This document shows, piece by piece, positions 47,852 through 62,186 of a stretch of DNA of 64,000 bases (positions within the stretch are counted from its first letter, which is position 1; each line of letters starts with the position of its first letter). Source of the stretch: Lewinella sp. IMCC34183. GTDB lineage: Bacteria > Bacteroidota > Bacteroidia > Chitinophagales > Saprospiraceae. The translations under genes and the position numbers were made by a program. The notes below the pieces were generated by a model. It ran no database searches, was not told the origin of the DNA, and was given only the letters and a program-made list of their open reading frames with translations. Location: the NCBI RefSeq assembly GCF_003390915.1, contig NZ_QMEM01000004.1, forward strand, positions 248,001-312,000. The letters are read 5' to 3'.

Positions 47852-48841
47852 CTACGCACCGCGCTGCCACCGTGCGTAGTCCTTGGCGAAGTAGCTGATG
47901 ATCACGTCCGCGCCTGCCCGACGTATGCTCACCAGGGCCTCGGTGGCCGCCTGCTCGTAGTCCAGCCAGCCCTTGTCGGCGGCGGCCAGCAGCATGGCGC
48001 ACTCCCCCGACACGTGGTAAGCGGCGATGGGCAGAGGGTGCGCCTCGTGCAGCCGCCAGATGATGTCAAGGTAGTTCAGGGCGGGCTTTACCATGAGGTA
48101 GTCCGCGCCCTCCGCGGCGTCGAGGGCGCCCTCGCGCAGGGCCTCGCGGGCGTTGGCGGGGTCCATCTGGTAGGTCTTCTTGTCGGCGGGTACATCCGCG
48201 AGCTGTCGCGGCGCGCTGTCCAGGGCATCGCGGAAGGGCCCGTAGAAGGCACTGGCGTACTTGGCTGTGTACGACATGATGGAGGTGTCGGTGAGTCCGG
48301 CTCCGTCGAGGGCGCGACGCATACTGCCTACGCGGCCGTCCATCATATCGCTGGGTCCGATAACGTCGAAGCCCGCCTGCGCCTGGGCTACCGCCATGGC
48401 GTCCAGCAATTTCAGGCTCTCGTCATTGTGGATCTTGCCATTGATGACCACGCCGTCGTGCCCGTCGGTGCTGTAGGGATCAAGGGCGGCGTCGGAGATC
48501 AGGCACACCTCGGGAAAGCGGTCCTTGATCGCCCGCGCGGCGTGCAGGTAGAAATTCTGCTCGGCGGTGGCATACGTGCCGGTCTTGTCCTTGTGCTCCT
48601 CCGGCACGGCGGGAAACATCATGAAGCTATGGAGGCCCACTTCGCCGCACTGCTCGATCTCGCGGAGTACTTCGTCAATGCCCAGTCGGTAAGTGCCTGG
48701 CAGGCTCGGGATGGCCAGCCGCGCCTTGGCGTCGGGCATCAGAAAGATGGGCTGCACCAGGTGGCCGGCCGTCAGTTCCGTTTCACGGACTAGGCCGCGG
48801 ACGGCGGCGGAAGAGCGGTTACGGCGGGGGCGGGAAAGCAT
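47852..48841 (-). CDS. hemB: delta-aminolevulinic acid dehydratase (porphobilinogen synthase)
   Basis: A 329-residue enzyme that condenses two 5-aminolevulinate molecules to porphobilinogen. Schiff-base lysines are Lys194 (SYTAKYASAFYGPFR) and Lys252 (YLMVKPALNYLDII). The metal site reads DAALDPYSTDGHDG (about 117-130) with Asp in place of Cys, so it is the magnesium-dependent, not the zinc, form. Start MLSRPRRN at 48841; an upstream in-frame start would run into the large palindrome at 48857-48899, which lies 16 bases upstream of this ATG. Confidence 0.96.
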   Translation of the reverse strand: MLSRPRRNRSSAAVRGLVRETELTAGHLVQPIFLMPDAKARLAIPSLPGTYRLGIDEVLREIEQCGEVGLHSFMMFPAVPEEHKDKTGTYATAEQNFYLHAARAIKDRFPEVCLISDAALDPYSTDGHDGVVINGKIHNDESLKLLDAMAVAQAQAGFDVIGPSDMMDGRVGSMRRALDGAGLTDTSIMSYTAKYASAFYGPFRDALDSAPRQLADVPADKKTYQMDPANAREALREGALDAAEGADYLMVKPALNYLDIIWRLHEAHPLPIAAYHVSGECAMLLAAADKGWLDYEQAATEALVSIRRAGADVIISYFAKDYARWQRGA

Positions 48842-48856
48842 AGCGTGATGGTTGAG

Positions 48857-48899
48857 CCCCCCGGACATCGGATGTGTTCCACATCCGATGTCCGGGGGG
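48857..48899. repeat. double palindrome copy 1 (long-arm form)
   Basis: Perfect 19-bp arms (48857-48875 and 48881-48899) with loop GTTCC. The arms contain ACATCGGATGT and ACATCCGATGT with outer CCCCCCGG / CCGGGGGG. It is 16 bases upstream of the hemB ATG. Confidence 0.95.
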
Positions 48900-49001
48900 C
48901 GGTAAGCAGGAAAAAGGGAACCGCCAGACCCCGGGAAGGATTAGCAAACCCAGCAATCATGGGGCCTTGCGGTGTTTCTTGACGTAATTCTGTCACTCCC
49001 T

Positions 49002-49040
49002 CCCCCGACATCGGATGTCCGGGACATCCGATGTCGGGGG
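49002..49040. repeat. double palindrome copy 2 (long-arm form)
   Basis: Perfect 19-bp arms (49002-49020 and 49022-49040) around one central G; core ACATCGGATGT, CCGGG, ACATCCGATGT, outer CCCCCG / CGGGGG. It begins one base after the stop codon of the next gene, so it is a candidate terminator, but no T-run follows. Confidence 0.95.
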
Positions 49041-49041
49041 A

Positions 49042-51291
49042 TCAGCGACTTACGTACCAGGCGAAGGTGCGGCATTCCGCGATGAGCTCCTCGTAGAAAT
49101 CGGTGTCGGCGTAGTTGTCCGCCAGAATTCCGAAGTAGGTGAACGGCCGCGCCCCGCCCGGCCGCCCCAGGGCATAGTGCTGGTTGCGCTCGGCCTTGGC
49201 GGCGTAGTAGGTGGCCAGGGCGGCGGCCTCCCGGTCCGGGGCGCGGCGCAGGGCCCGCTCGAAGTAGTAGAGCGGCTGGTCCATGCTGAAGTGCTCGAGG
49301 TTGCCGAGGGGTGCATTGGGATTGGAGAAAACGCTAGTGGGGTCCCGTCGCGCGGCGGCGCGGGCGGCACTGGTCCCCGAACGGAAGACGTCGGCGAAGG
49401 GCCAGTTGTAGCTGAAGTAGGTCAGGTTGTAGAGCGCCAGCCCGATGTTGAAGTAATTGCGCGCCGCCAGGGTATCGTTGGTGCTCTGGTCGGCTTCTTC
49501 CTCCAGGGCATTGAGGCGGTCGAGCAACTGCACCTTGTTGTAGGTCGCCGCATCGGCGGGCGGCGAGAAGTTGACCCGGTCGTTGAGCTGGCGGACGAAG
49601 GGGGCGTAGCGGCCATATTCATCGATGCGGCCGGGCGTGATGCGCCGGTAGATCTCAAGGGCGGCCTTCCACTGCCCGCGTTGCAGGTAGTGGTTACCGA
49701 GCAGGTTGTTGAGGTCGTCGGCGGGATGGGCCCCGATGCGGTCGGTGAAGAGGGCCCGGTCGAAGCGGTTGCGGTTCAGGCTGTCGGTAAGCCGCTCCAG
49801 GGCGAGCAACGATTCGATAGCGGGGTTCTTCGCGATGGCGTCGAAGCCGTAGCGCATCAGGTTGGCCTTCGCCTCGCGGCCGGTGCGCAGGTAGATCGCC
49901 TCGAGCTTGCGGTTGACCAGCTCCCGGAAATCCGGGTAGCGTTGTTGCGTCTCCGGATCGGTGAGCAGGCCGTAGTAGTGGATTTCCACCGAATCGCTCA
50001 CCTGACTCAGCTCCAGCACGTCGATCACGTCGCGAAGGATGGCCACCTGCTGCTGCAGGCTGTCGCTCTCCGTATCCTGTCCGAGGGTGGCCAGCGTGCG
50101 GTCGGCGTAGAAGTAATCCCCCACCAGCAATTCCAGCACCCCACGGGCCAGTCGCCAGAATTCCGGTTGCTCGGTCAGCCCATCCTCGATCACGCTATTG
50201 ACGAAGGCCTGCATTTCCACGGCCCGGGCCTCGGCCGCTTCCGGGGGCCCCGCGGGCCGCAGGTTACTGCCCAGCAGCTCGCGCTCGAGCTCCTGCAACT
50301 CGCGCATGGTGAGCAGTTCCAGGGCCCGGTTGGTGGGTTCGAAGGCATAGATGTGCCGCAGTTCCTCCAACACGACCGCCCGCCCGTCGTGGGCCCGCAG
50401 GACATACATCATGGCCCGCTCGTGGTCGTTCTGGCAGAGGAGCAGGGCCTGCCGCCACTGCTCGTCGGTCTGGATCGCGAAGCTGTAGTAGGCGCTTTCC
50501 CGCTTGCTCGGGCTCCGCTCGAAGATGCGGCTGAAGAGGTAGGCCGACTGCGGATAGTCGCCCAATGCCTGCAGGGCTCCCGCGCGGTGCCCCTCGATCC
50601 AGTCGTCGAGCAGACTCGGGTTGGCGTCCACCTTGGGCATGAGGTAATCGTAGAGTTCCAGTACGTAGGCGTACTCCTTCAGGTAGTGGGCCAAGCGGAT
50701 CAGCTGGTAGGCATAGCGCAGGCGTACGTAGTGGCTCTCGAGGCGGGGGAAGCGGTCGAGGCCCTCCGTCAGCAGGTCTTCCATGTCGGCGCGGGAGATG
50801 TTCCGCTCGGCAAAGGCATCGTCCGGCGCTACGACGAAAGGCTCCACCCGCTTGGCGTAGATGAGGTACTCGGTCACTTCGCGGCAGCGGGCCTCCAGCA
50901 GGTGGCGGGCAAAGCCGTTGGCCTGCAGGCCCGGGGGCAGGTCGGCCACGCGGGCGTCCTCGCGGCCCATGAGCCGGAGCAGGATTTCCAGCTGATTGAG
51001 GTTGTCGCCGTACACGACGGCATCGATCTCTTCAGCGTCGGCCTGGTCGCAGAACCGCTCGTGCCACTCCGCCACGTTATCGCGGCGCTGCTGCCGGTAC
51101 GGCTGCTCGAGCTGCTCGCGGTAGGCTCCCCCAAAGTGCAGGAAGAAGGGCGCGAGACGGGAATCAAAGTCGATGACCCGCGGATTGAGAAAATCATACG
51201 TTTCCGTAGGGGGCAGCGGGGTGCATTGTCCCCCGCCGTACAGGTGGGCGAGTCCGAGCAGGAGCAGCAAACACGCGGTGGGCCGTAGCAT
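49042..51291 (-). CDS. large secreted helical-repeat protein, function unknown
   Basis: A 749-residue protein read from MLRPTACLLLLLGLAHLYGGGQC at 51291 (Sec or lipoprotein-like signal). The body is almost all helix with TPR-like pairs (LLDDWIEGHRAGALQALGDYPQSAYLFSRIFERSPSKRESAYYSFAIQ; YFNIGLALYNLTYFSYNWPF; ALRRAPDREAAALATYYAAKAERN), consistent with a long solenoid. Whole-cell role unknown; proteins of this type are found across the phylum without assignment. It is divergent from the patatin gene. The upstream 51 codons of open frame are not used because the signal peptide starts here. Confidence 0.75.
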   Translation of the reverse strand: MLRPTACLLLLLGLAHLYGGGQCTPLPPTETYDFLNPRVIDFDSRLAPFFLHFGGAYREQLEQPYRQQRRDNVAEWHERFCDQADAEEIDAVVYGDNLNQLEILLRLMGREDARVADLPPGLQANGFARHLLEARCREVTEYLIYAKRVEPFVVAPDDAFAERNISRADMEDLLTEGLDRFPRLESHYVRLRYAYQLIRLAHYLKEYAYVLELYDYLMPKVDANPSLLDDWIEGHRAGALQALGDYPQSAYLFSRIFERSPSKRESAYYSFAIQTDEQWRQALLLCQNDHERAMMYVLRAHDGRAVVLEELRHIYAFEPTNRALELLTMRELQELERELLGSNLRPAGPPEAAEARAVEMQAFVNSVIEDGLTEQPEFWRLARGVLELLVGDYFYADRTLATLGQDTESDSLQQQVAILRDVIDVLELSQVSDSVEIHYYGLLTDPETQQRYPDFRELVNRKLEAIYLRTGREAKANLMRYGFDAIAKNPAIESLLALERLTDSLNRNRFDRALFTDRIGAHPADDLNNLLGNHYLQRGQWKAALEIYRRITPGRIDEYGRYAPFVRQLNDRVNFSPPADAATYNKVQLLDRLNALEEEADQSTNDTLAARNYFNIGLALYNLTYFSYNWPFADVFRSGTSAARAAARRDPTSVFSNPNAPLGNLEHFSMDQPLYYFERALRRAPDREAAALATYYAAKAERNQHYALGRPGGARPFTYFGILADNYADTDFYEELIAECRTFAWYVSR

Positions 51292-51359
51292 AACCGCCAA
51301 GGTACTCCGCCACGGGCATCGACCGCTGACGCCGGCCCGGCACCTAGCGTAAAAATCAC

Positions 51360-51367
51360 TAATCTTG
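51360..51367 (+). promoter_or_regulatory. -7-like box of the patatin gene
   Basis: TAATCTTG, one mismatch from TAnnTTTG, 33 bases before the ATG at 51401. On the other strand TACCTTGG (51297-51304) stands 5 bases before the start of the divergent gene. Confidence 0.35.
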
Positions 51368-51400
51368 TCTGACCACCCGCTCCCCGCCACCTTTTTTCCG

Positions 51401-53611
51401 ATGAAAGCCACCTTAGCTCTGCTCCTGACCTGTATGCTCTGCACCTGCGTACGCGCCCAGGGTGATACAAAGGTAGGCTTGGTACTGAGCGGGGGCGGCG
51501 CGAAGGGCTACGCCCACATCGGGGCCCTGCGCGTGATCGAGGAGAGCGGCGTACGCATCGACTACATCGGCGGTACCAGCATGGGGGCGGTGGTCGGCGG
51601 ACTGTACGCGGCCGGCTACAGCGCCGACCAGCTCGAGCAACTGCTGCGCAGCATTGACATCATGGACGAGCTGCAGGACGCCGTGGAACGCGAGGACCGC
51701 ACCATCTACGAAAAGCTCTACAACGAAAAGTACCTGCTGTCGATTTCCATGCAGGACTTCAGCATCCAGCTGCCCACGGCCCTGTCGGACGGGCAGCGGG
51801 TCCACGACCTCTTCTCCAACTGGACGGCGGACGTGGGTCACATCCGCGACTTCGACGACCTGCCCATTCCCTTCCTGGCCGTAGCCACCGACATCGAAAG
51901 CGGCGACGCCCTCGTCATCGAGGAGGGTATGCTGGCCGAGGCCATGCGCGCCAGTGCCGCCCTGCCCGGCGTGCTGAGCCCCTACGAGCTGAACGGACAC
52001 CTGCTCACCGACGGCGGCGTCTCCAATAACTACCCGGCCGAGGAAGTGAAGGAGAAGGGGATGGACTACGTGCTGGGCGTGAGCGTGGAGGCGGACCCCC
52101 TGAAGGCCGACGAGATCAGCAGTGTGGCCGACCTCATCATGCAGATCGCCTTCTTCCAGGCCAACCGCCGCAACCTCGAACAGTACGAGGTGACCGACCT
52201 CGACATCAAGCCCGCCCTGGACGGCTTCACCGTACTCAGCTTCAGTGACATCGACACCCTCATCAACGCCGGCTACCTGGCCGCCCTGGAACTGAAGCCC
52301 ACGCTGGATTCCCTGGCCGCCACCCAGCGGGCCAACCGCAGCACCCGCGATACGAGCGACGTGCAAATCCCCGAATACCTGAACGTAGGCACGCTCAAGA
52401 TCAGCGGAAGCGAAGAACTAAGCGACCGGCAGATCCTAAGCTTCTTCGACGACCAGCTGCCCGGAAAGATCAGCTGGGAAGACTTTCGGCAGGGGCTGAC
52501 CGACCTGCACGTCACCGGCCGCTATGCCAACATCAACTACCGCTGGGAGTACATCGACGAAGAGAGTGAAAAGGTGGCGCTGGAACTGATCTTCGAGCAA
52601 CTGCCCGCCTTCGGACAGCAGGCGCGACTGGGCCTGCACTACGACCCCGTATACCGCGCCAACCTGCTGCTGAACCTGACGCTCTTCGACCAGATCGTGG
52701 ACAACTCCACCACCAGCCTCGACCTGATCGCGGGCGAGCGCCTGCGCTACCGCTTCGACTATCGGGTCAACCGCATCAACGGCTCCGCCTTCGGCCTCCG
52801 CAGCCGCCACGACTATGCCGACGTGGGCTTCGACGTCGACGACATACGCAACGACGAACTGGGGATCGTGCTGGACCGAGTGGATTTCCGCTTTTCCGAC
52901 TGGAACGCGGAACTGTACTGGGATATCCGGCAAACGCACAACAGCTTTACCGGCATCGCCGCCGAACTAAAGTACTACGTGACGGGCTCCGACCAGATAC
53001 AGGAGGTGGACACCGCCCAACTCTTCACGTTGGAGGACGACTTCTACTTCGTACCCAAGATTTACCTGCGTTACGACAAGCTGGACCGGCCCCACTTCCC
53101 CCTGCGCGGCTTCACGATCGACGCCGAGGCACGGGCCATCCGTGACGTCTCCAACGGCGTGCCGGGCTGGGCCTACAACGCCGACGTGGACTTCCTGGGC
53201 ATGATCCCCCTGGCCGAAAAAGCGTCGCTGGGGATCGAAATGAGCCTCGGGGGGTTCACCGGCCGCTCGGCGCTGCCCTACCGCTACTACCTCGGCAGTA
53301 CCAACCGCAAGCTTATGAACAACTTCAAGCCGTTCCCGAGCCTCGACTTCGCCGAGGCCAGCGGCAACAACCTGCTCATGGCCGAGGTGTTCTGGCGGCA
53401 GCGCCTTTTCAGCAATCACTATTTGCACCTGGGCGCGCGCGGCGCGCGCATCGGCAATCCGTACAACGTACCGAGCTCGATCGACAAAAGCTACATCGGG
53501 GCGGGAGTGGTGAGCTACGGACTGGACACGCCCCTCGGCCCCATCGAGCTGGTGTACGGTGCCGGCACCTCGGGCGGGGCACTCTATTTCTACCTGGGCC
53601 ACTGGTTCTAG
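51401..53611 (+). CDS. patatin-like phospholipase with POTRA-like and beta-barrel regions (PlpD type)
   Basis: A 736-residue protein with signal peptide MKATLALLLTCMLCTCVRAQ. The patatin domain has the oxyanion hole SGGGAKG (about 30-36), nucleophile Ser60 in GTSMG and Asp204 in TDGGVSNNYPAEE, forming a Ser-Asp dyad. After about residue 330 comes a POTRA-like segment (LNVGTLKISGSEELSDRQILSFFDDQLPGKISWEDFRQGLTDLH) and then a BamA/Omp85-like barrel ending LYFYLGHWF, with the terminal aromatic expected of outer-membrane strands. This is the PlpD layout (type Vd autotransporter or fused Omp85 lipase). Start ATG at 51401 chosen over TTG 36 bases upstream. Confidence 0.9.
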   Translation: MKATLALLLTCMLCTCVRAQGDTKVGLVLSGGGAKGYAHIGALRVIEESGVRIDYIGGTSMGAVVGGLYAAGYSADQLEQLLRSIDIMDELQDAVEREDRTIYEKLYNEKYLLSISMQDFSIQLPTALSDGQRVHDLFSNWTADVGHIRDFDDLPIPFLAVATDIESGDALVIEEGMLAEAMRASAALPGVLSPYELNGHLLTDGGVSNNYPAEEVKEKGMDYVLGVSVEADPLKADEISSVADLIMQIAFFQANRRNLEQYEVTDLDIKPALDGFTVLSFSDIDTLINAGYLAALELKPTLDSLAATQRANRSTRDTSDVQIPEYLNVGTLKISGSEELSDRQILSFFDDQLPGKISWEDFRQGLTDLHVTGRYANINYRWEYIDEESEKVALELIFEQLPAFGQQARLGLHYDPVYRANLLLNLTLFDQIVDNSTTSLDLIAGERLRYRFDYRVNRINGSAFGLRSRHDYADVGFDVDDIRNDELGIVLDRVDFRFSDWNAELYWDIRQTHNSFTGIAAELKYYVTGSDQIQEVDTAQLFTLEDDFYFVPKIYLRYDKLDRPHFPLRGFTIDAEARAIRDVSNGVPGWAYNADVDFLGMIPLAEKASLGIEMSLGGFTGRSALPYRYYLGSTNRKLMNNFKPFPSLDFAEASGNNLLMAEVFWRQRLFSNHYLHLGARGARIGNPYNVPSSIDKSYIGAGVVSYGLDTPLGPIELVYGAGTSGGALYFYLGHWF

Positions 53612-53631
53612 CGCGGCGGCCACCGGCGCGC

Positions 53632-53639
53632 TACCTTGC
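53632..53639 (+). promoter_or_regulatory. -7-like box with a four-base leader
   Basis: TACCTTGC, one or two mismatches from TAnnTTTG, ends 4 bases before the SDR ATG at 53644. If used, the transcript would start at or inside the start codon (leaderless). Confidence 0.35.
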
Positions 53640-53643
53640 GGAT

Positions 53644-54495
53644 ATGAAAGATTTCAACGGAAAGGTGGTCGTCATCACCGGCGCCGGATCCGGCATCGGC
53701 CGCGAACTCGCCTGGCAGCTCGCCGCCTGCGGGGCCGTGCTCGCCCTCAACGACCTGAAGGAGGACGCCCTGGACGAGACCTGGGCTGAGCTGCCGGAGC
53801 GGACGCGGGGGCTCCGTCGGGCCTTCGACGTGGGCGACCGGGAGGCTATGCAGCACTTTGCTACCGCCGTGAACGAGGAGCTGGGTCGGGTGGACGTCGT
53901 CGTTAACAATGCGGGCTTCAGCGTACGGCAGCAGGCGGTCGTGCATACCCGCGTCGAGGCCTACGAGCGGACCCTCCGCGTGAACCTGTGGGGAGTGATC
54001 TACGGTTCGCTGGCTTTCCTCCCTTACCTGCGCCAGCAGCCGGGCGCCAGCCTGGTCAACGTCAGCAGCGTTTTCGGGCTGTTCGCCTTCCCCGGATCGG
54101 GGCCCTACAATACGAGCAAGTTCGCGGTGCGTGGCTTCACCGAGACATTGCGCGTGGAGATGAGAGGGCACCTGCACGTCTGCTGCGTACATCCCGGCGG
54201 GATCGCCACCAACATTCACCGCAACGTGGAGATCGACGACCCACGAGAACGGGAACGCTTCATCCGTACCTTCGAAAAACAGGCCAAGACCACCGCCGCC
54301 GAGGCCGCGCGGCAGATCATCGCCGGCATCGAAAAGCGGAAGTCGCGCATCCTCATCGGCCGCGACGCCTACTGGATCGACAAGGTGACCCGCCTGCTGC
54401 CGGCGCGCTACGAGTCGGTACTGGCCCGCTGGCTCGATCGCAACCGCTTTCTGGCGGGGCCGCAGGTGCAAGGCTCATCAGAAAAGGGGGGATAA
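53644..54495 (+). CDS. SDR family NAD(P)-dependent oxidoreductase
   Basis: A 283-residue short-chain dehydrogenase. Cofactor motif TGAGSGIG at about 12-19, NNAG at 88-91, Ser141/142, Tyr155 and Lys159 (YNTSK), then HPGGIATNIHRN. The extended C-terminus after residue 220 (FEKQAKTTAAEAARQIIAGIEKRKSRILIGRDAYWIDKVTRLLPARY) is the pattern of a lipid/acyl-linked SDR branch that touches membranes. Asp at the end of beta-2 (NDLKED) suggests NAD(H). Substrate unknown. Confidence 0.87.
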   Translation: MKDFNGKVVVITGAGSGIGRELAWQLAACGAVLALNDLKEDALDETWAELPERTRGLRRAFDVGDREAMQHFATAVNEELGRVDVVVNNAGFSVRQQAVVHTRVEAYERTLRVNLWGVIYGSLAFLPYLRQQPGASLVNVSSVFGLFAFPGSGPYNTSKFAVRGFTETLRVEMRGHLHVCCVHPGGIATNIHRNVEIDDPRERERFIRTFEKQAKTTAAEAARQIIAGIEKRKSRILIGRDAYWIDKVTRLLPARYESVLARWLDRNRFLAGPQVQGSSEKGG

Positions 54496-54605
54496 GGCGT
54501 TGGTTCCGGACGTCGGACGGACCCGCTCCCCAAGAACGACCGTAATATGACGAAACCTTCATATATCCGGGCAACCCCTCCCCCGCTGCGGTGTATACCA
54601 CCCGT

Positions 54606-55193
54606 ATGCAAGCAATCCTGGATTTTATCTCTCAACCCTGGCACTGGTCGGTAAGCGGTTTTTTGATCGCGGTGACCATGCTGGTCCTGTTACTCCTCGG
54701 CAAAGAATTTGGCGTCAGCTCCAACCTGCGTACCATGTGTACCCTGGCGGGGGCAGGCCGTTCGTCCGACTTTTTCCGGATCGACTGGCGCGCCCAGACC
54801 TGGAACCTGGTCTTCGCCGGCGGCGCGGTACTGGGTGGGTTTATTGCCACGACGGTATTAGCCAATCCGGAGCCGGTGGCTATCTCGGCGGAAACGACTG
54901 GCTACCTGCATTCGGTGGGCATCAGCTACCCGGACGGGGCGGGCTTCGTCCCCGCCGAACTTTACGACATGGAGCGGCTGCTGCGCCCGGCAAACTGGCT
55001 GTTCCTGGTGGTGGGTGGCTTCCTGATCGGCTTCGGGGCCCGCTGGGCGGGGGGCTGCACCTCCGGCCACGCGATCAGCGGACTGGCCAACCTGCAGTTG
55101 CCCAGCCTGGTAGCCGTGATCGGCTTTTTTATCGGAGGACTGGTCATGACGTGGCTGATCCTTCCCTCACTCCTCCCCTACCTAAGCCAGTAA
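54606..55193 (+). CDS. YeeE/YedE family sulfur transporter, first half
   Basis: A 195-residue membrane protein with about five helices and the signature RWAGGCTSGHAISGLANL (Cys near residue 153), in which cysteines relay thiosulfate or another sulfur species in TsuA/YeeE proteins. Bacteroidota often carry the transporter as two genes; this one holds the GGCTSGH motif and the next gene the GACPGP motif. Three bases separate them. The start is ATG 54606; a GTG five codons earlier is possible. Confidence 0.88.
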   Translation: MQAILDFISQPWHWSVSGFLIAVTMLVLLLLGKEFGVSSNLRTMCTLAGAGRSSDFFRIDWRAQTWNLVFAGGAVLGGFIATTVLANPEPVAISAETTGYLHSVGISYPDGAGFVPAELYDMERLLRPANWLFLVVGGFLIGFGARWAGGCTSGHAISGLANLQLPSLVAVIGFFIGGLVMTWLILPSLLPYLSQ

Positions 55194-55196
55194 GCC

Positions 55197-55610
55197 ATGA
55201 AATTTCTAGTCTACCTGCTCGTCGGTACCATTTTCGGCATCGTGATGACCAAATCGGAGGCCGTGTCCTGGTTTCGCATCCAGGAAATGTTCCGCTTTGA
55301 AAGCTTCCATATGTACGGCATCATCGGCGTGGCCGTGGTGGTGGGGGCCCTCTTCGTGTCCCTGCTGAAGCGCTTTGATATCCACGCCGTCGACGGCAGC
55401 GAATTGCGCCTCAAGCCCAAGGCGCACACCTACAAGCGGTACATCCTGGGCGGCATCCTGTTCGGCTTCGGCTGGGCGATGACGGGGGCGTGCCCGGGTC
55501 CGCTGTTTACCCTGCTCGGCCAGGGCATCTGGACGATCCTGCTGGTCATTGCCAGCGCGGTGCTGGGTACCTACGTATACGGCTTGCTGCGGCCGCGGCT
55601 GCCGCACTGA
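55197..55610 (+). CDS. YeeE/YedE family sulfur transporter, second half
   Basis: A 137-residue membrane protein with about four helices and the second YeeE/YedE motif GWAMTGACPGPLFTLLG (Cys near 101). The pair would form one pseudo-symmetric pore for thiosulfate or sulfane sulfur. No rhodanese, persulfide dioxygenase or MBL-fold gene adjoins, though these are frequent companions. The stop is followed at once by a 31-bp palindrome shared with the convergent nth gene. Confidence 0.88.
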   Translation: MKFLVYLLVGTIFGIVMTKSEAVSWFRIQEMFRFESFHMYGIIGVAVVVGALFVSLLKRFDIHAVDGSELRLKPKAHTYKRYILGGILFGFGWAMTGACPGPLFTLLGQGIWTILLVIASAVLGTYVYGLLRPRLPH

Positions 55611-55615
55611 GTTTT

Positions 55616-55646
55616 GCACATCGGATGTCCGGGACATCCGATGTGC
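55616..55646. repeat. double palindrome copy 3 between convergent genes
   Basis: Perfect 15-bp arms (55616-55630 and 55632-55646) around a single G: GCACATCGGATGTCC and its complement. It fills the 36-base gap between two convergent stop codons (ends one base before the nth stop), so it could act as a two-way terminator. The 31 bases are identical to copy 4. Confidence 0.95.
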
Positions 55647-56321
55647 TCAGTGACTCGCGAAGTACCGGCACCGCTCACGCACCACGCAATTGCCACACTT
55701 CGGGTGGGAGTAGGTGCACACCCGCTGCCCGTGCTTGAACAGCAACTTGTGAAAGTTGAGGAGTTCGTCGGCGTCGGCGGGCAACATCTCCAGTAGCGCG
55801 CCGTGTGATTTGGCCTGGCTGATCTTCTCCGGCAGGATCCCGAAGCGGGTACTCACCCGGTGTACGTGGGTATCTACTGGCAACACGGGCCGGCGCAGGG
55901 AAAACAGGAGTACGAAAGTGGCGGTCTTGAAGCCTACGCCGGGCAGCTCCATGAGTAGCGCCTGGGCCTCTTCGACGGGCATCTCGGTCAGTAGCCGGTC
56001 GAGGTTGTTGCCGTAGGTACCGATGACGTACGTAAGTATTTCCTTAATGCGTGGGGCCTTGATCTCCGGCCAGCGGGTGGTCTGGATACAATCCTCGATT
56101 TCCGCGACCGTTGCACCTGCGACCCCGCCCCAGTCGCCGAAGGTTGCCAGCAGCTTGTCGTAGGCGGCCTTTTCGTCGGCGTAGTTAGTGCGCTGGCTCA
56201 GGGTAGTGGCGATCAGCTGATCGAGGGCCGACTTGGTACTGTAGCGGGTCTGCCGGCCGTAGGTTTCCTGCAGGATGGAGATGAGGTAGTCGAGCTGGGG
56301 CAGGGTATCGGTGTCGGGCAT
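55647..56321 (-). CDS. nth: endonuclease III-like DNA glycosylase/AP lyase
   Basis: A 224-residue base-excision repair enzyme for oxidised pyrimidines. Helix-hairpin-helix LMELPGVGFKTATFVLLF contains the catalytic Lys, and LPVDTHVHRVSTRFG the catalytic Asp. The [4Fe-4S] ligands are Cys-x6-Cys-x2-Cys-x5-Cys in VCTYSHPKCGNCVVRERC. Start MPDTDTLPQL at 56321; a longer open frame upstream runs through two palindromes and is not coding. Phe instead of the usual Arg in LPGVGRKTA is a small deviation. Confidence 0.93.
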   Translation of the reverse strand: MPDTDTLPQLDYLISILQETYGRQTRYSTKSALDQLIATTLSQRTNYADEKAAYDKLLATFGDWGGVAGATVAEIEDCIQTTRWPEIKAPRIKEILTYVIGTYGNNLDRLLTEMPVEEAQALLMELPGVGFKTATFVLLFSLRRPVLPVDTHVHRVSTRFGILPEKISQAKSHGALLEMLPADADELLNFHKLLFKHGQRVCTYSHPKCGNCVVRERCRYFASH

Positions 56322-56370
56322 GGTCAGGGCGTCGGGCCCCTCTATAGGTGGCGGGGCGACCGGATGTTTG

Positions 56371-56401
56371 GCACATCGGATGTCCGGGACATCCGATGTG
56401 C
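56371..56401. repeat. double palindrome copy 4 upstream of nth
   Basis: Identical over 31 bases to copy 3 (arms 56371-56385 and 56387-56401). A degenerate half, CGGATGT then TTGGC then ACATC, leads into it, hinting that a further copy decayed here. It lies 50 bases upstream of the nth ATG. Confidence 0.95.
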
Positions 56402-56463
56402 TCCGTCGATTTCGAATTTTCCAGGTGATGAAGCCGCGTATTCGGTACACGTATGGATGCCGT

Positions 56464-56490
56464 ACATCGGATGTGGTGCACATCCGATGT
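56464..56490. repeat. double palindrome copy 5
   Basis: ACATCGGATGT (56464-56474), loop GGTGC, ACATCCGATGT (56480-56490). Lies 10 bases beyond the stop of the M56 gene, on the way to nth. Confidence 0.95.
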
Positions 56491-56499
56491 GCAAAACCC

Positions 56500-58983
56500 C
56501 TACCGCCGCGAAGACCGCACGATGGAATAGTTAATCAGGTCTTCCAGGGTATCGCCCTCCCGGCGGTTCTTTTTAATGAATTCCGGAGTGACGTGGTGGA
56601 TGCGCAGATTCGTGAGCGTATCGAAGGAAATTTTGCCGTACCCCAGGTCGGCGTAGGAGGCGACGAAGTCCGGCGTGATGCCGTGAATGCGGGCGTTAAC
56701 GAAGTCCTCACCCTTCAGCTCGGTATACCCCAGGTCGCGCAGCCCAACCACAAGGTCCGGAGTCACCCGATGGATGCTATAATTCATCAGTTGCTCCAAA
56801 TTGTCGATCTCCAGCCCCGCTTCCATCATCTGCTTGGCCTGCCGGGCGTTGACGCCGTGGATTTTCGCCCCGATCACGTCTTCGATCGTCAGGTTCGCGA
56901 AGCCGAGGTCGGAAAGCTCCTTCAGGTAATCCGGGTCGACCCCGTGGATGGAGGCATTCCGCACTTCCTCCAATGTAAGGTCGGCGAAGCCCGCGCGCTC
57001 CATTGCCCATACGTACTCAGGTTGTACGTTATGGATCTTGGCGGCGATAATCTCCTCGGCGCTGAGATTGCCGTAGCCCGCGGCGGCCAGTTCCGCTACG
57101 TAGGCGGGCGTCACGCTGTGGATGGCCAGTTGCAGGACCTGCTCGAAGGGCACGTCTCCAAAGCCCAGGCCCGCCATCTCCTTCAGGAAGGTCGGCGATA
57201 GCCCGTGGATCTTGGCCTGCACCACGTTTTCCAGGGTCAGGCCGGAATATCCCGCTTCGGAAAGTGCTTTCACGTAGGCGGCGTTGATGTTGAAGATGCG
57301 CAACTGGATCAACCCTTCCAGTTCCGGTCGTTCGTAGCCGGCCGCATCCAGGTCGGCCAGTACCGCCTTCATGGTCTGCTCGCCGATGTCGAAGATCGCC
57401 AGCTGCATCAGTTCGTCGTGGTTGGGGTTGAACTGCTCCCGCTCCAGGTAGTCGAGGTACCCCGCGGTGATGTCGTTCAGGAAGAAAAGCGTCAGTTCCC
57501 GGTTGGCGTACTTGCCGTACCCGCGATCCGCGAGCATGCGCTTGTAGTCGGCGGAGGAGACAAAGCTGTAGGTGCCGGTACCCATGCCGTTCTCGAAGGT
57601 CCCGCGCAGCGTCAGCGTACCGGCTTCGCGGTTCAGGGAAAACTCACCGATGCTGTTCCCCGGCAGGGTTCCCAGCACCGCCCTGTCGAAGCAGCGATCG
57701 GTCTGGAAATTGTAACTGTTCCCGTCTCCGTCGTTCCGTTCCCGGAAGGTGAAGCAGACCTCGTTGCCGGTCACTTCGGCCGTCCAGCTGCGGACCTGGG
57801 TTACGCCTTCCGGTAGCGGTGGCGGTGCCGGCGCGGGCGGCGGGGGTGCCGGAGCCGGAGGTGGGGGCACCGGAGCGGAAGGTGCGGGCGGCGGCGCGGG
57901 GGCGGATGGAGGTAGGGGCGGCGGCAAGGGTGCCCGGTTACCGTAGGGACGGTCGAGGGTATCGGGTGTCGTCTGCTGCGCCACTGCATTAAAGGAGCTC
58001 AGCGAGAAGAGGAGGAGTCCAGGCAGGGCCAGGTACTTCCAGGCGACCCGGTTGGAGGATCTTTTGGTCTTCATCATTTTGATTCGTTGTTCGAGAAAGT
58101 GTTGGTTGTAGTTGGTGACCAGCCCCCGGGCGTGCCGGGGTACGGCCACCTGCAGGAGGCTGAGTTGGTAGCCTACCGGGTCGGCACCGCGGCGCAGGAC
58201 CTCAGCGTCGGTCAGGTATTCCAGGTTGTTTTCCACGGCGCGGCGATATAGCCAGGCGAAGGGGTTGCACCACTGCACGACGATGAGCAGTTCGGCCAGA
58301 ATGAGGTCGACGCTATGCCGCCCGTGTACGTGTACCCGCTCGTGTTCCAGGATCCGGTCGCGGGTAGCGGGATCGTATCCGTCAGGGTTCAGAAAAACCC
58401 GGTTCCAGAAGGAATAGGGTGCGGCATCTTCTTCGATCTCCACGATATACAGGTCGTCCATCCGGTAGCCGGGTGACCGGCGGATCGTTCGCAGCACACC
58501 TACTAGCTGCATCAGGAATTGCAATCCCAGTACCACCACGCCCAGCAGGTAGGCGTAGCCCAGGAGGCCTCTCCAGTCCAGGTCCGTGTACCAGGCGGGG
58601 GCCACGGCAACGGCTGTTTGCGCGGACGCAGGTGCGGGGTTACTATCCGAAGCGGCAACCTTGGCTGGTGCGGCGTAGGTACGCTTTGGGTCTTGCATAC
58701 TTGACTGCCCGCGGGTTGTTGCCGTCGCGGGGTCCGCTACTTCCAGGAGTGCGGCGGGAGCCACGGCCAGGGGAAAGGCCGTAAGTCGCGGGGCTACTCC
58801 CCCTGTGGCCGTCCGCAGCGACAGGCCGGCCGGCACCGTCACCAGCGGCAGCAGGAAACAGGCAGCCATCCCCCCCAGCAGCAGCCAACGGTTAAGGCGG
58901 AAAAAGGTCTCGGTGCGCAGTACGTACTGATAGTACAGGTAGCAGGCCGCCAGCAGGAGGGCAACATGGACGGGATAGATCAT
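56500..58983 (-). CDS. M56 (BlaR1-like) metallopeptidase sensor with Pro-rich linker and 29-residue repeats
   Basis: An 827-residue membrane protein. Three N-terminal helices (about 5-22, 33-52, 138-165) precede the cytoplasmic zinc protease site His214-Glu215-x-x-His218 (LEHERVHVHG), with the later Glu in ENNLEYLTDAEVL; a fourth helix is at 314-335. Residues 352-392 are almost only Pro and Ala. After a beta-rich region (395-480) come about ten 29-residue repeats (roughly 520-820) of the form AKIHGVxPxYxxELxxLGFxxLTxEDVI. In BlaR1/MecR1 an outside ligand triggers cleavage of the BlaI repressor; here the penicillin-binding sensor is absent and the repeats probably replace it. It overlaps blaI by 4 bases. 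Confidence 0.88.
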   Translation of the reverse strand: MIYPVHVALLLAACYLYYQYVLRTETFFRLNRWLLLGGMAACFLLPLVTVPAGLSLRTATGGVAPRLTAFPLAVAPAALLEVADPATATTRGQSSMQDPKRTYAAPAKVAASDSNPAPASAQTAVAVAPAWYTDLDWRGLLGYAYLLGVVVLGLQFLMQLVGVLRTIRRSPGYRMDDLYIVEIEEDAAPYSFWNRVFLNPDGYDPATRDRILEHERVHVHGRHSVDLILAELLIVVQWCNPFAWLYRRAVENNLEYLTDAEVLRRGADPVGYQLSLLQVAVPRHARGLVTNYNQHFLEQRIKMMKTKRSSNRVAWKYLALPGLLLFSLSSFNAVAQQTTPDTLDRPYGNRAPLPPPLPPSAPAPPPAPSAPVPPPPAPAPPPPAPAPPPLPEGVTQVRSWTAEVTGNEVCFTFRERNDGDGNSYNFQTDRCFDRAVLGTLPGNSIGEFSLNREAGTLTLRGTFENGMGTGTYSFVSSADYKRMLADRGYGKYANRELTLFFLNDITAGYLDYLEREQFNPNHDELMQLAIFDIGEQTMKAVLADLDAAGYERPELEGLIQLRIFNINAAYVKALSEAGYSGLTLENVVQAKIHGLSPTFLKEMAGLGFGDVPFEQVLQLAIHSVTPAYVAELAAAGYGNLSAEEIIAAKIHNVQPEYVWAMERAGFADLTLEEVRNASIHGVDPDYLKELSDLGFANLTIEDVIGAKIHGVNARQAKQMMEAGLEIDNLEQLMNYSIHRVTPDLVVGLRDLGYTELKGEDFVNARIHGITPDFVASYADLGYGKISFDTLTNLRIHHVTPEFIKKNRREGDTLEDLINYSIVRSSRR

Positions 58984-59342
58984 GATTCCTGGTCTTTAAT
59001 GAGGCGGATGAGGCGCTCCAGCTCCGAGGGGTCGAGCTGCTGCTCCTTCGCGAAGTAGTTGACGAGCTTCATGGGCGAGTTGTCGAAGAAGCGCTTCACG
59101 ACGTCGTCCACGGCTTTCTTCTGGTACTCCTCCTCCGCAACGACGGGAAAGAAGCGGTAGGCGTTGCCCAGTTTCTCGTGGGCCACGAAACCTTTTTCTT
59201 CCAGGATCTTCACCATGGTGGAAACGGTATTGTAGTGCGGTTTGGGATCGGGTAGTTCCTCGATGATCTCCTTGACAAAGGCCTTCTTGAGTCGCCAGAG
59301 GACTTCCATCAGTTGGGCTTCGCGCCGGGCTAGCTTTTGCAT
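58980..59342 (-). CDS. BlaI/MecI/CopY-family transcriptional repressor
   Basis: A 120-residue winged-helix repressor: LARREAQLMEVLWRLKKAFVKEIIEELPDPKPHYNTVSTMVKILEEKGFVAHEKLGNAYRFFPVVAEEEYQKKAV has the family order, with recognition helix HYNTVSTMVKIL and the usual protease cleavage region near residues 100-105. It forms an operon with the M56 sensor (ATGA overlap) and has three matching operators just upstream, so it most likely represses itself and its partner. Confidence 0.93.
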   Translation of the reverse strand: MQKLARREAQLMEVLWRLKKAFVKEIIEELPDPKPHYNTVSTMVKILEEKGFVAHEKLGNAYRFFPVVAEEEYQKKAVDDVVKRFFDNSPMKLVNYFAKEQQLDPSELERLIRLIKDQES

Positions 59343-59345
59343 GTC

Positions 59346-59406
59346 TACTAATTGATTAGTACAAGTATAATACTAATATCTTAGTATTTCAACTAATGCG
59401 TTAGTA
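59346..59406 (-). promoter_or_regulatory. three BlaI operators TACTAA-N4-TTAGTA
   Basis: Dyads at 59346-59361 (TACTAA, TTGA, TTAGTA), 59371-59386 (TACTAA, TATC, TTAGTA; arms extend to AATACTAA / TTAGTATT) and 59391-59406 (AACTAA, TGCG, TTAGTA; one mismatch). Centres are 25 and 20 bases apart. They cover the whole leader and promoter area of blaI, starting 4 bases before its ATG. Confidence 0.8.
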
Positions 59407-59412
59407 TTTTGC

Positions 59413-59439
59413 ACATCGGATGTGGCGCACATCCGATGT
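59413..59439. repeat. double palindrome copy 6 beside the BlaI operators
   Basis: ACATCGGATGT (59413-59423), loop GGCGC, ACATCCGATGT (59429-59439), 7 bases from the third BlaI dyad. Confidence 0.95.
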
Positions 59440-59509
59440 ACGCGCTCGTTTTCGCCTTTTTTGGGTGAGATGATGCTATTTTGTGGTGATGAATTGCCCG
59501 GTCAACTGC

Positions 59510-59536
59510 ACATCGGATGTGCAGCACATCCGATGT
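59510..59536. repeat. double palindrome copy 7
   Basis: ACATCGGATGT (59510-59520), loop GCAGC, ACATCCGATGT (59526-59536). It lies 4 bases beyond the histidine kinase stop. Confidence 0.95.
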
Positions 59537-59540
59537 CCGA

Positions 59541-60812
59541 TCACGAAAACGTCACCCGCAGCCGCGTCCAGCCGTCGGCTTCCGTGGCCAGCCGGTACGT
59601 GGCGCCGTGATTTTCGAGAATCTCGCGGGTGAGGGTCAGGCCCACACCCTGCCCGGCAGCTTTGGTGCTGAAGAAGGGCGTGAAGAGCTGACCCGCTGCC
59701 GCCTCGGGTATGCCGGGCCCGTCGTCGCCGATCACGAAACCCGCCGGTACCGACCGGCTGCTCACGTGGATGCGGCCGCCGGTGCCGATACTTTCTCGCG
59801 CGTTAGTCAGCGCATTGATGATTACCTGCTCGAGCTGGGCCCGATCGGCCCGGAGCCACACCGGCGCGGCGGGCAGATCGGTGGTCAGCGCGATGTCCTG
59901 TTCGCTCAGCAGGGATACCATCACTTCAGTGGCGCCACGCAGGATGTCGTTCAGGTCGACCCGCTCGCGGGCCGGGGCCGGCAGTCGGACCACCCGGGCG
60001 AAGTTGCGCATGAAGGCGGTCATGTTCTCGGCCCGCAGAATCACGGCGGGCAGGTTCTCACGGGCGATGTCCCCCAACTCGGGATCCTCCTCCCGGGCCA
60101 CCTCCAGTATGGTCTTCAAAAGGGAAACTACCGCCGCGTTGGAGTTATTCACTTCGTGGGCCATCATCCGGATCACCTTTCCGTAGGCCTCCTTTTCGGC
60201 GCGCAGCAGATCGGCCGTCACGTCCTGCAGGACCACGAACCCCCGTTCGAAACCGCGGTCCACGAAGGAGGCCTTCTCGGCGTGCACCCGGCGATTGTCG
60301 GGCGTACTGAACAGCCGCTTCTCCCCCGCCCCGAGTGCCAGACTGGGCTCGAGCACCGCCGCGGCGAATTCCGGACTCCCGCTCCGCCGCGCAGCCACCC
60401 ACGCATTCTCCGATTCAACGCGGCCGTCGAAATCCAGAATGATTATTCCCACCTCCGCGGCATTCACGAGCTGGTCGAGGAAGTCTTCCCGCTGCCGGGC
60501 CGTGACCCGCTCGTTGCGCAGCTGATCGATCATCCGGTTGTACACCTCCCCGAGCCGGTCGATTTCCGGACTTCCCGACTTGGTCATCTTTACCGAAAAG
60601 TCCTGGTCGGCCAGTGCACCCGCCCCCCGGCTCAGCAGCTGCAGCGGCGCCACCAGCACCTCGTACAGCCGGTAGCCTACGTACGCGGAGAGGAGCAGGA
60701 CCATCTCCACAAGCAGCAGGACCGGCCCCTTCCCCACCACCTGGTAGATCAGTCCTCCGATCACCAGGTGAAGCGCGACGAGGTAGACGATGTATTTGGC
60801 GGCGGCGGACAA
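59541..60812 (-). CDS. NtrB-like sensor histidine kinase
   Basis: A 423-residue membrane kinase: two N-terminal helices (about 5-45), HAMP-like region (50-100), PAS-like domain (105-200), phospho-acceptor His219 in MMAHEVNNSNAAVVSLL, and HATPase domain with N-box EQVIINALTNARE, G1 GDDGPGIPE, F-box LFTPFFSTK and G2 GQGVGLTLTREIL. H-box and order resemble NtrB/AtoS kinases that work with sigma-54 activators, and the partner lies 24 bases upstream. Translation begins at TTG 60812; the only alternatives are non-canonical. Confidence 0.92.
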   Translation of the reverse strand: MSAAAKYIVYLVALHLVIGGLIYQVVGKGPVLLLVEMVLLLSAYVGYRLYEVLVAPLQLLSRGAGALADQDFSVKMTKSGSPEIDRLGEVYNRMIDQLRNERVTARQREDFLDQLVNAAEVGIIILDFDGRVESENAWVAARRSGSPEFAAAVLEPSLALGAGEKRLFSTPDNRRVHAEKASFVDRGFERGFVVLQDVTADLLRAEKEAYGKVIRMMAHEVNNSNAAVVSLLKTILEVAREEDPELGDIARENLPAVILRAENMTAFMRNFARVVRLPAPARERVDLNDILRGATEVMVSLLSEQDIALTTDLPAAPVWLRADRAQLEQVIINALTNARESIGTGGRIHVSSRSVPAGFVIGDDGPGIPEAAAGQLFTPFFSTKAAGQGVGLTLTREILENHGATYRLATEADGWTRLRVTFS

Positions 60813-60819
60813 GCCCTCA

Positions 60820-60842
60820 ATTTAAAATGTGAAATTTTAAAT
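60820..60842. repeat. AT-rich hairpin at the regulator-kinase junction
   Basis: ATTTAAAAT (60820-60828), loop GTGAA, ATTTTAAAT (60834-60842): perfect 9-bp arms spanning the stop codon of the regulator gene, 8 bases before the TTG of the kinase. It may tune translation or processing between the two. Confidence 0.5.
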
Positions 60843-62186
60843 CTTAAATTTCTCGATCCTGCGGTACAGCGCCGCCCGGGTGATGCCCAGCTCCCGCGCC
60901 GTGGCGGTAATCTCCCCGTCGTTGCGGGCCAGGGCAGTCCGGATCATTTTGATCTCCATCTGTTCAAGGGTAACGCCCGAAGGAGCGAAGTTCGTGACCG
61001 GCCCCTGGGTACCCGACTGCCGCTCCAGCTGGTCGGCCGTGATCCTCTCTTCCGGCGCCAGGATGGCCGTCCGCTCGATCAGGTTCTGTAGCTGCCGGAT
61101 GTTGCCCGGGAAGGGTTGGCGGCGCAACCAGTGCAGGGCGGCCGGCTCGAAGGTCAGTTCCGGTCGGTCGTAGCGCCCGCGCGCGGACGTCAGGAAGTGC
61201 TCGGCGAGGAGCGCCACGTCGTCGGGCCGGTCGCGGAGGGCCGGCAAGTGCAGGTGAATAAGGTTGATGCGGTAGAGCAGGTCCTCCCGGAAGCTGCCCG
61301 CCGTTACCCGCGCGGAAAGGTTGCGGCTGGTGGCGCTGACGATGCGTACGTCGGTGGCGCGCGATCTACTCTCTCCCAGCCGCTCGTACTGCCGTTCCTG
61401 GAGCACGCGCAGCAGTTTTACCTGGGCGGGCGGGGCCAGGTCGCCGATCTCGTCGAGAAAGAGCGTACCCCCCTCCGCCAGCTCGAAGCGCCCCTTGCGG
61501 TCCGCCCGTGCGTCGGTAAAGGCGCCGGCCTTGTGGCCGAACAGTTCCGACTCGAACAAGCCCTCGGGTATCCCCCCCAGGTTGACGGCCACGAAGGGCG
61601 CCTCATTGCGCCGGCTCGCGGCGTGGATGGCTTCGGCCACCAGTTCCTTGCCCGTACCGCTCTCGCCGGTGATGAGCACCGGGGCCTGGGTAGCGGACAC
61701 CCGCCGCGCCTGGTCGAGGACGGCGGTAAGCGCCGGCGAATTTCCGACGATGGAGCCAAAGGGGTCTTCCTTACCTACCGGCCCCGCACCCGCGTCCGCG
61801 CCCCACGAACCACGGGAGTTATCCAGCTGTGTCTTGATGGCGTTGAGCAACTCGTGATTGTCCCAGGGCTTGGCGATGAAGTCGCGCGCGCCGGCCTTCA
61901 TGCCCTCCACCGCCAGCTGCACCGTGGCCCAGCCCGTCATCTGGATGACGGGCAGTTCCGGGACCGCCCGCAGCAGCTCACCGAGCAACTTCATTCCGCC
62001 CCGGCCGGTGGTTTCCACGGAGAAGTTAAGGTCGAGCAGCACCAGGTCGGGGCGGAAGCTACGCACCCGGTCGAGGGCGTCCGCCGGCCCGTGGATACTG
62101 TCTACCGTGTATCCGGCCCGCTTGAGCAGCAGCTCGAGGCTTTTGCAGACCGTACGGTCGTCGTCGATAATGAGGATGTTGCTGAT
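60837..62186 (-). CDS. NtrC-type sigma-54-dependent response regulator, non-canonical start
   Basis: A response regulator of about 449 residues. Receiver domain: acidic pocket in ILIIDDDRTV, phospho-Asp in DLVLLDLNF, Lys in FIAKPW. AAA+ domain: Walker A GESGTGKE, GAFTDA in place of GAFTGA, Walker B GGTLFLDEIGDL, and arginine-finger region. C-terminal Fis-type helix-turn-helix (ITATARELGITRAALYRRIEKF). The frame has no ATG, GTG or TTG before residue 41, which lies after the acidic pocket. The expected MSNILIIDDD reads ISNILIIDDD with ATC at 62184-62186, so that codon is taken as start. Mutation, sequence error or true ATC initiation are all possible. Confidence 0.82.
   Translation of the reverse strand: MSNILIIDDDRTVCKSLELLLKRAGYTVDSIHGPADALDRVRSFRPDLVLLDLNFSVETTGRGGMKLLGELLRAVPELPVIQMTGWATVQLAVEGMKAGARDFIAKPWDNHELLNAIKTQLDNSRGSWGADAGAGPVGKEDPFGSIVGNSPALTAVLDQARRVSATQAPVLITGESGTGKELVAEAIHAASRRNEAPFVAVNLGGIPEGLFESELFGHKAGAFTDARADRKGRFELAEGGTLFLDEIGDLAPPAQVKLLRVLQERQYERLGESRSRATDVRIVSATSRNLSARVTAGSFREDLLYRINLIHLHLPALRDRPDDVALLAEHFLTSARGRYDRPELTFEPAALHWLRRQPFPGNIRQLQNLIERTAILAPEERITADQLERQSGTQGPVTNFAPSGVTLEQMEIKMIRTALARNDGEITATARELGITRAALYRRIEKFKI

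Follow-up and report, generated by a model that had tools for sequence, protein, structure and literature searches.

A 64,000-nucleotide stretch of the Lewinella sp. IMCC34183 genome (contig NZ_QMEM01000004.1, positions 248,001 to 312,000; hereafter the window) contains seven copies of a double palindrome, in which two 11-mers of the type ACATCSGATGT are separated by five bases. These copies are very probably repetitive extragenic palindromes (REPs) of a RAYT/REP system. The support found at the level of sequence consists of a genome-wide, almost wholly intergenic family of palindromes, a single-copy RAYT gene flanked by them, and a joint change of the core at the gene and across the genome of one relative. 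In that relative the core letters have changed symmetrically while the places, shared with its sister species, appear to have stayed the same, which bears on the evolution of such repeats. Specifically, we propose that the RAYT would recognise the hairpin formed in single-stranded DNA, with the 11-mers as the sequence-specific part, and, acting in trans from a distant locus, would have both spread the copies and maintained them. Copies already in place would have passed down in orthologous gaps over long periods, and in-place changes of the 11-bp core, beyond copying to new sites, would let the population keep pace with its RAYT. The mobility and the function of the family are those that we infer from these data.

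Size and distribution of the repeat family

An earlier note on this DNA had reported the seven copies, and exact ACATCGGATGT-N5-ACATCCGATGT pairs are present at every position that it gave. A search of the window for the 11-mer with one mismatch allowed yielded fourteen matches, all of them exact (0.60 expected from shuffled sequences, largest count 3), while the pair pattern with up to three mismatches yielded the seven exact pairs and one overlapping match with three mismatches (0.00 expected). The family is not confined to 48.8–59.6 kb, the range given in the note for the copies, as the genome holds 78 pairs and 221 single 11-mers (reversed control, 0). It had named the absence of further copies, or their random occurrence inside genes, as findings that would count against it. 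Further copies are present in the numbers just given, and only 1 of the 78 pairs is located inside a called gene, with a coding fraction of 0.877 in the fetched stretches. Genes in the window and in the fetched stretches were called by a small purpose-written codon-usage script.

The genome of the window species (G000) is one that we infer to belong to the genus Neolewinella, and 21 genomes made up the genus set. The single 11-mer ACATCSGATGT occurs 221 times in the own genome, 120 times in Neolewinella marina MKG-38 (G203), 74 times in N. xylanilytica DSM 29526 (G215) and 40 times in Lewinella sp. IMCC34191 (G207). The remaining 17 genomes, which include G202 and G199, have 0–5 copies each. 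The pair pattern did not occur in any of 198 other genomes sampled from the family, a sample without N. marina, IMCC34191 and N. xylanilytica, and a motif search of viral contigs was without match. The core is nearly invariant: 381 kb of repeat-bearing stretches contained 173 exact 11-mers versus 3 with one mismatch. Six lone 11-mers (loci L035–L040) are all inside genes and look like background.

All seven window copies are located outside called genes, in agreement with the note, and the gap between convergent stops that it described as exactly filled by one copy measures 36 bp (between the stops at 55610 and 55647). Intergenic status depends on the choice of start codon, however, because GATGT contains ATG and several of the longest possible open reading frames (ORFs) begin within copies (47852–48868, 49015–51288, 55647–56483, and 59517–61091).

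Hairpin structure of the copies

The central bases of the two 11-mers are complementary in 60 of the 78 pairs. In copies of the ordinary orientation (n = 56), perfect pairing extends 3.71 bp past the core, compared with 1.01 bp when the right flanks were shuffled (highest of 1000 shuffles, 1.73 bp). The length of the "exactly five variable bases" between the 11-mers was confirmed, but their free variation was not, since in 46 of these 56 copies the two end bases of the loop pair with each other. On single-strand folding, each of the seven window copies gave a perfect hairpin with a 3-nt loop, and none of 200 shuffles of each folded as well. The outer arms are thus variable and pairing while the core is invariant and self-complementary, which indicates that each copy is a hairpin around such a core. 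Pairing beside the 11-mers was fully local in 24 of 56 copies versus fully long-range in 34 of 56; local pairing is therefore also frequent and the two foldings are not fully separated.

The arrangement differs among the species. Unlike the N5 hairpins of the window species, the relatives often carry two cores 33 bp apart, and in N. marina such 33-bp pairs are commonly mirrored across an unrelated stretch of about 100 bp.

A single-copy RAYT flanked by the repeats

The earlier note had proposed a search for RAYTs with the core in their own flanks and had offered a REP family acting in trans as one option. Both are borne out by a RAYT gene on another contig of the window species (C55:80664-81215), which has five cores upstream and one core 14 bp behind its stop codon. 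Its orthologues in N. marina, IMCC34191 and N. xylanilytica have ACATCSGATGT cores on both sides. The G202 gene is bordered at both ends by ACGTCSGACGT; the 33-bp arrangement of the relatives recurs there, and one of the cores is mixed. The sixth member of the clade, in G199 (L288), is flanked by the one-mismatch variants TCATCGGATGT and ACATCCGATGA in a different arrangement. All six genus genomes having the clade, the four motif-rich ones among them, accordingly carry the motif or a variant on either side of the RAYT, and the gene with these flanks occupies more than one location on the chromosome. Its gap is orthologous in N. marina, G202, IMCC34191 and N. xylanilytica.

When three intact members were aligned and used as the query, 6 of the 21 genus genomes proved to have the clade, with scores of 365, 360, 359, 320, 299.5 and 236 bits. 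There is one member per genome; the next match in the genus scored 104 bits, and the best score outside the genus was 139 bits (298 family genomes, E of 1e-15 or better). The clade has a support of 1.0 in a tree of 18 proteins, obtained from 24 loci after six without a usable frame had dropped out. Its proteins have 180–188 residues, and the MPNHFHLL (HUH) and Y-x-H-x-N motifs are present in the alignments. The predicted model (pLDDT 90.1) has as its best match among 350,542 chains 4er8, the E. coli RAYT bound to a REP hairpin (E of 6e-7, TM 0.58/0.63), and the NCBIfam model REP_Tyr_transpos matched at 1e-11, which is below its cut-off.

An IS200/IS605 insertion sequence would be expected to have multiple near-identical transposase copies, whereas a single clade copy per genome was observed. 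Canonical Y1_Tnp genes (PF01797; two in the own genome, others in relatives) show no link to the motif, as none of the 14 fetched PF01797 loci from the four motif-rich genomes has the exact motif nearby. The PF01797 search missed the cognate RAYT of the own genome, which was found with an alignment of three RAYTs from small-genome metagenome-assembled genomes (MAGs). The note's statement that the window has no matching transposase holds for the motif-linked lineage, but a Y1 transposase-like gene does exist there at 39679–40281 (minus strand). It belongs to another, distantly related RAYT-like lineage (REP_Tyr_transpos 2.8e-11, below the cut-off), and no 11-mer was found in the 3.4 kb fetched around it.

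Probable exchange of the core in G202

The RAYT tree places G202 and N. marina as sisters (0.966). A pairing of core and RAYT would predict that ACGTCSGACGT is present throughout the G202 genome. The scan found 96 copies of ACGTCSGACGT in G202, compared with 0–6 in the other 20 genus genomes and 0–5 for controls, while old-type 11-mers numbered 5 in G202, near the control of 4. Cores fitting ACRTCSGAYGT in the fetched stretches numbered 174 in the own genome, 99 in N. marina, 59 in G202, 40 in IMCC34191 and 56 in N. xylanilytica. The genome-wide counts for the same five are 221, 120, 96 (new core), 40 and 74, so that each of these RAYT-bearing genomes has tens to hundreds of cognate repeats.

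The cores were compared in twelve of the gaps common to G202 and N. marina. By counts of cores fitting ACRTCSGAYGT, which leave out more degenerate copies, all 42 N. marina cores in these gaps are of the old type, while 40 of the 45 G202 cores are of the new type, five have one arm changed and none is of the old type. In seven aligned gap pairs the cores are collinear and the 33-bp spacing is kept, with some copies degenerate in one species. Outside the cores, similarity between orthologous units was 0.521 versus 0.474 for shuffled partners, a value reached by 7 of 2000 shuffles (10 unit pairs). Other species pairs provided at most two unit pairs each and showed no excess similarity, including two pairs of G202 with N. 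xylanilytica. From these alignments we read the gaps as probable descent in place with the cores exchanged. Since the non-core effect is small, we retain renewed insertion at these gaps as an alternative, which is weighed below.

A stronger statement, which we put forward tentatively as a possibility short of even, is that of an orthoswitch both complete and in place. After G202 and N. marina separated, nearly the whole REP population of G202 would have exchanged ACATC/GATGT for ACGTC/GACGT at the old places and within locus-specific surroundings, the direction of the change resting on one protein tree of 18 sequences. About 96 sites would then have been rewritten, either by population-wide selection under a changed RAYT specificity or by short-tract, RAYT-driven conversion of the cores. 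If this is true, REPs would be a maintained, coevolving network of recognition sites and not a drifting cloud of mobile copies.

Gaps shared among species

Close species often have repeats in the same orthologous gaps: G202 shares 14 of 16 with N. marina, IMCC34191 shares 14 of 16 with N. xylanilytica, and N. xylanilytica shares 16 of 26 with the own genome. Of 51 own gaps, those found in common numbered 10 with N. marina, 6 with G202, 11 with IMCC34191 and 16 with N. xylanilytica, and most own gaps were not found in common within the fetched stretches. These figures are biased, and REP-free orthologous gaps are under-sampled, because the stretches were taken around known copies; for G202 they were 14, namely 13 around copies among the matches listed and the RAYT locus.

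Two gaps of the window illustrate the range. The gap at 59342–59540 has orthologous cores in N. marina (two), IMCC34191 (four, across an extra called gene) and N. xylanilytica (one). For the gap at 56321–56499, N. xylanilytica has two cores and IMCC34191 none, and the N. marina orthologue is only 56 bp long and lacks a core. The comparison with orthologous gaps that the note had suggested thus did reveal an empty site, and a gap filled in some species and empty in others indicates that gain and loss also occur.

Weighing of the alternatives

Several observations weigh against assignment of the copies to a RAYT/REP system. The canonical GT[AG]G foot is missing: at a distance of at most 6 nt from the stem foot it was found in only 4 pairs out of 78, a rate like that of random intergenic points (73 of 1240); directly beside the core, GT[AG]G was found at none of the 78 pairs in the own genome and at 4/99, 1/59, 4/40 and 7/56 in the relatives. 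The RAYT matches Pfam Y1_Tnp weakly (E of 0.039, below the cut-off). In N. xylanilytica its frame is interrupted by one in-frame TAG and 74 cores nevertheless persist, so that present activity appears not to be needed for short-term survival of the repeats. The own-genome orthologue of the gap that holds the RAYT in N. marina contains three cores without a RAYT. Finally, close species share places and the cores are uniform, a behaviour nearer to that of maintained protein sites than to that of an active jumper.

In one alternative, which we consider unlikely, the 11-mers would be sites of a different, double-stranded-DNA-binding protein with a chromosome-organising or regulatory role, the RAYT would be incidental in a site-rich gap, and the coevolution would be operator-like. 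Each 11-mer is itself a perfect dyad, cores with one mismatch are almost absent, places are common to several species, and the frequent local pairing beside each 11-mer would fit such a site as well. The change in G202 is also symmetric within the 11-mer, with 40 of 45 cores fully switched and the flanks still partly locus-specific. An incidental RAYT, however, is difficult to reconcile with flanking on both sides in 6 of 6 genomes and at more than one chromosomal place. Moreover, the outer arms pair as a hairpin, which a dimer site in double-stranded DNA would not need, and no coherent gene set is evident next to the seven copies in the window.

It is improbable that REPs were inserted afresh into the same few gaps in each species, such gaps being insertion hot spots, and that the G202 core came by new insertions. 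This would account for the use of only some gaps, many with several copies, and for the modest non-core similarity, with no excess in the two G202/N. xylanilytica pairs. It accounts less well for the conserved order and 33-bp spacing of the cores in the seven aligned G202/N. marina gap pairs, for orthologous units that exceed shuffled partners in all but 7 of 2000 shuffles, and for the existence of REP-free orthologous gaps.

Intrinsic terminators or hairpins that stabilise mRNA ends, with that role shaping the distribution, are a very unlikely explanation: the hairpins are stable and the median distance to the nearest pair is 10 bp for stop codons (n = 41) versus 59 bp for starts (n = 55), but a T-rich tract follows 3 of 78 hairpins versus 81 of 1240 random intergenic points, convergent gaps are not preferred (pairs in 6/30 convergent, 29/133 co-directional and 15/47 divergent gaps, as in neighbouring gaps), and a terminator would require pairing but no invariant sequence. 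The note's remaining option, a regulon operator, is disfavoured by this position behind stops, convergent gaps included, and by the link to the RAYT.

Comparison with known systems

RAYT-flanking REPs, RAYT–REP coevolution and syntenic RAYTs with different REPs have already been published (PMC2817692, PMC3116915, PMC3686654). With the gamma-proteobacterial RAYT/REP systems (REPtrons, REPINs), the Neolewinella system has in common a single RAYT gene with palindromes on either side, gene gaps that harbour copies in the tens to hundreds, inverted copies placed close together, a RAYT-side core that is also the genome-wide core, and orthologous RAYTs with different REPs. The Neolewinella unit differs from those REPs in lacking GT[AG]G, in its 11-bp dyad with a single central S, and in its N5 hairpins (window species) or 33-bp pairs (relatives), with places held in common and the core apparently exchanged in place.

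An atypical, GTAG-free REP type has been described in Bacteroidota, namely that of TnpAY1 subclass 2.6, or Bertels group 5, from Bacteroidetes (PMC6006769). The Neolewinella RAYT agrees with this subclass in its host, in its length (183 residues versus about 179 in the motif table, and about 180 overall), in a Y motif near YIH[QN]NP, and in atypical GT[AG]G-free structures beside the gene and elsewhere. It deviates in its HuH motif NHFH and W motif FQ, for which the table gives NH[LIV]H and WQ. TIRYTs and TIRtrons are RAYT-like genes flanked by other inverted repeats (PMC3733652). They are similar in combining a tyrosine transposase with inverted, partly self-complementary flanking repeats that form genomic families, but most of those described belong to subclass 2.1 with a median of 238 residues (PMC6006769), and the Neolewinella proteins have 180–188 residues. 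The comparison thus suggests a member of the RAYT/REP kind that stands outside the GTAG REPs and probably near subclass 2.6.

A changed REP class has been termed an orthoswitch, in which old copies are expected to remain and decay and whose mechanism the authors call speculation (Nunvar et al., 2013, PMC3686654). G202 resembles that description: its RAYT is syntenic, the REP beside the gene has changed, and copies of the new class are present genome-wide. It differs in that 0 of 45 cores in the 12 common gaps are of the old type and the new cores are on old places. How a RAYT and its scattered REPs stay matched is an open question. Two sister species with one syntenic RAYT, the same gaps, and cores that differ by one symmetric exchange constitute a small, clean case, in which one can ask whether the protein specificity changed, via which residues, and if it was selection or copying that rewrote the sites. 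The Neolewinella repeats also add a description of an atypical REP type without GTAG from Bacteroidota.

In the open-licence PMC literature, neither ACATCGGATGT nor GACATCCGATGTC was found, and searches for Lewinella with repetitive extragenic palindromes and for RAYT/REP sequences with concerted evolution were without match. The string ACATCCGATGT does occur in seven papers of that literature, and none of the six listed is about repeats by title.

Occurrence of the core outside the genus

Among the matches listed, the 11-mer recurs in MAGs of Patescibacteria and in the MAG Bacteroidetes/Chlorobi bacterium MS-B_bin-24 (G222; L097–L195 on RCNO01 contigs). The latter has 366 11-mers, many in tight N7 hairpins, and also a second palindrome family of the GTAGGGGCG type. 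Three small-genome MAGs named "bacterium" (L233, L232, and L230) have ACATCSGATGT hairpins near the ends of a RAYT or in frame inside it. The exact motif was present within 4 of 30 fetched RAYT loci from 14 motif-bearing genomes, and in the reverse direction a RAYT-like ORF was located within 200 bp of 2 of 93 motif loci outside Neolewinella. The core in other phyla is a lead and possibly convergent. On visual inspection we discarded matches in Symploca and Sphingobacteriaceae, which look like tandem repeats, and in Kribbella, which mostly look like one shared site. Long perfect palindromes with an entirely different sequence flank more distant RAYTs of the family (L314, L315, and L316); other RAYT lineages may have repeats of their own.

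Copies in the window and their neighbours

The positions of the seven copies and their immediate surroundings are listed in Table 1.

Table 1 Probable REP hairpins in the window.
Copy	Positions	Strand	Surroundings and sequence	Basis
1	48857..48899	.	19-bp arms; core ACATCGGATGT-GTTCC-ACATCCGATGT, which precedes the ALAD start called at 48841 (minus strand) by 23 bp	Pattern search, hairpin fold
2	49002..49040	.	Behind the stop of gene 49042-51291 (minus strand), at 1 bp for the copy and 7 bp for its core	Pattern search, hairpin fold
3	55616..55646	.	In the 36-bp convergent gap 55611-55646	
4	56371..56401	.	Upstream of the called DNA glycosylase start (minus strand)	
5	56464..56490	.	9 bp past the stop of the minus-strand M56/BlaR1-like gene; gap common to copy 4	
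6	59413..59439	.	Upstream of the BlaI-like gene 58980-59342 (minus strand)	
7	59510..59536	.	4 bp past the stop of gene 59541-60812 (minus strand); gap common to copy 6	

In N. marina, copy 3 has four cores as its counterpart, in a gap that extends to the stop of the glycosylase orthologue. The SDR and glycosylase genes adjoin each other in that species, on either side of a repeat-filled gap; in the window, two genes resembling parts of a TsuA/YedE-type transporter (54678–55610) separate the SDR gene from the repeat. Several ACTAAT/ATTAGT-type stretches, which we take to resemble BlaI operators, are present in the window at 59341–59411, upstream of the BlaI-like gene.

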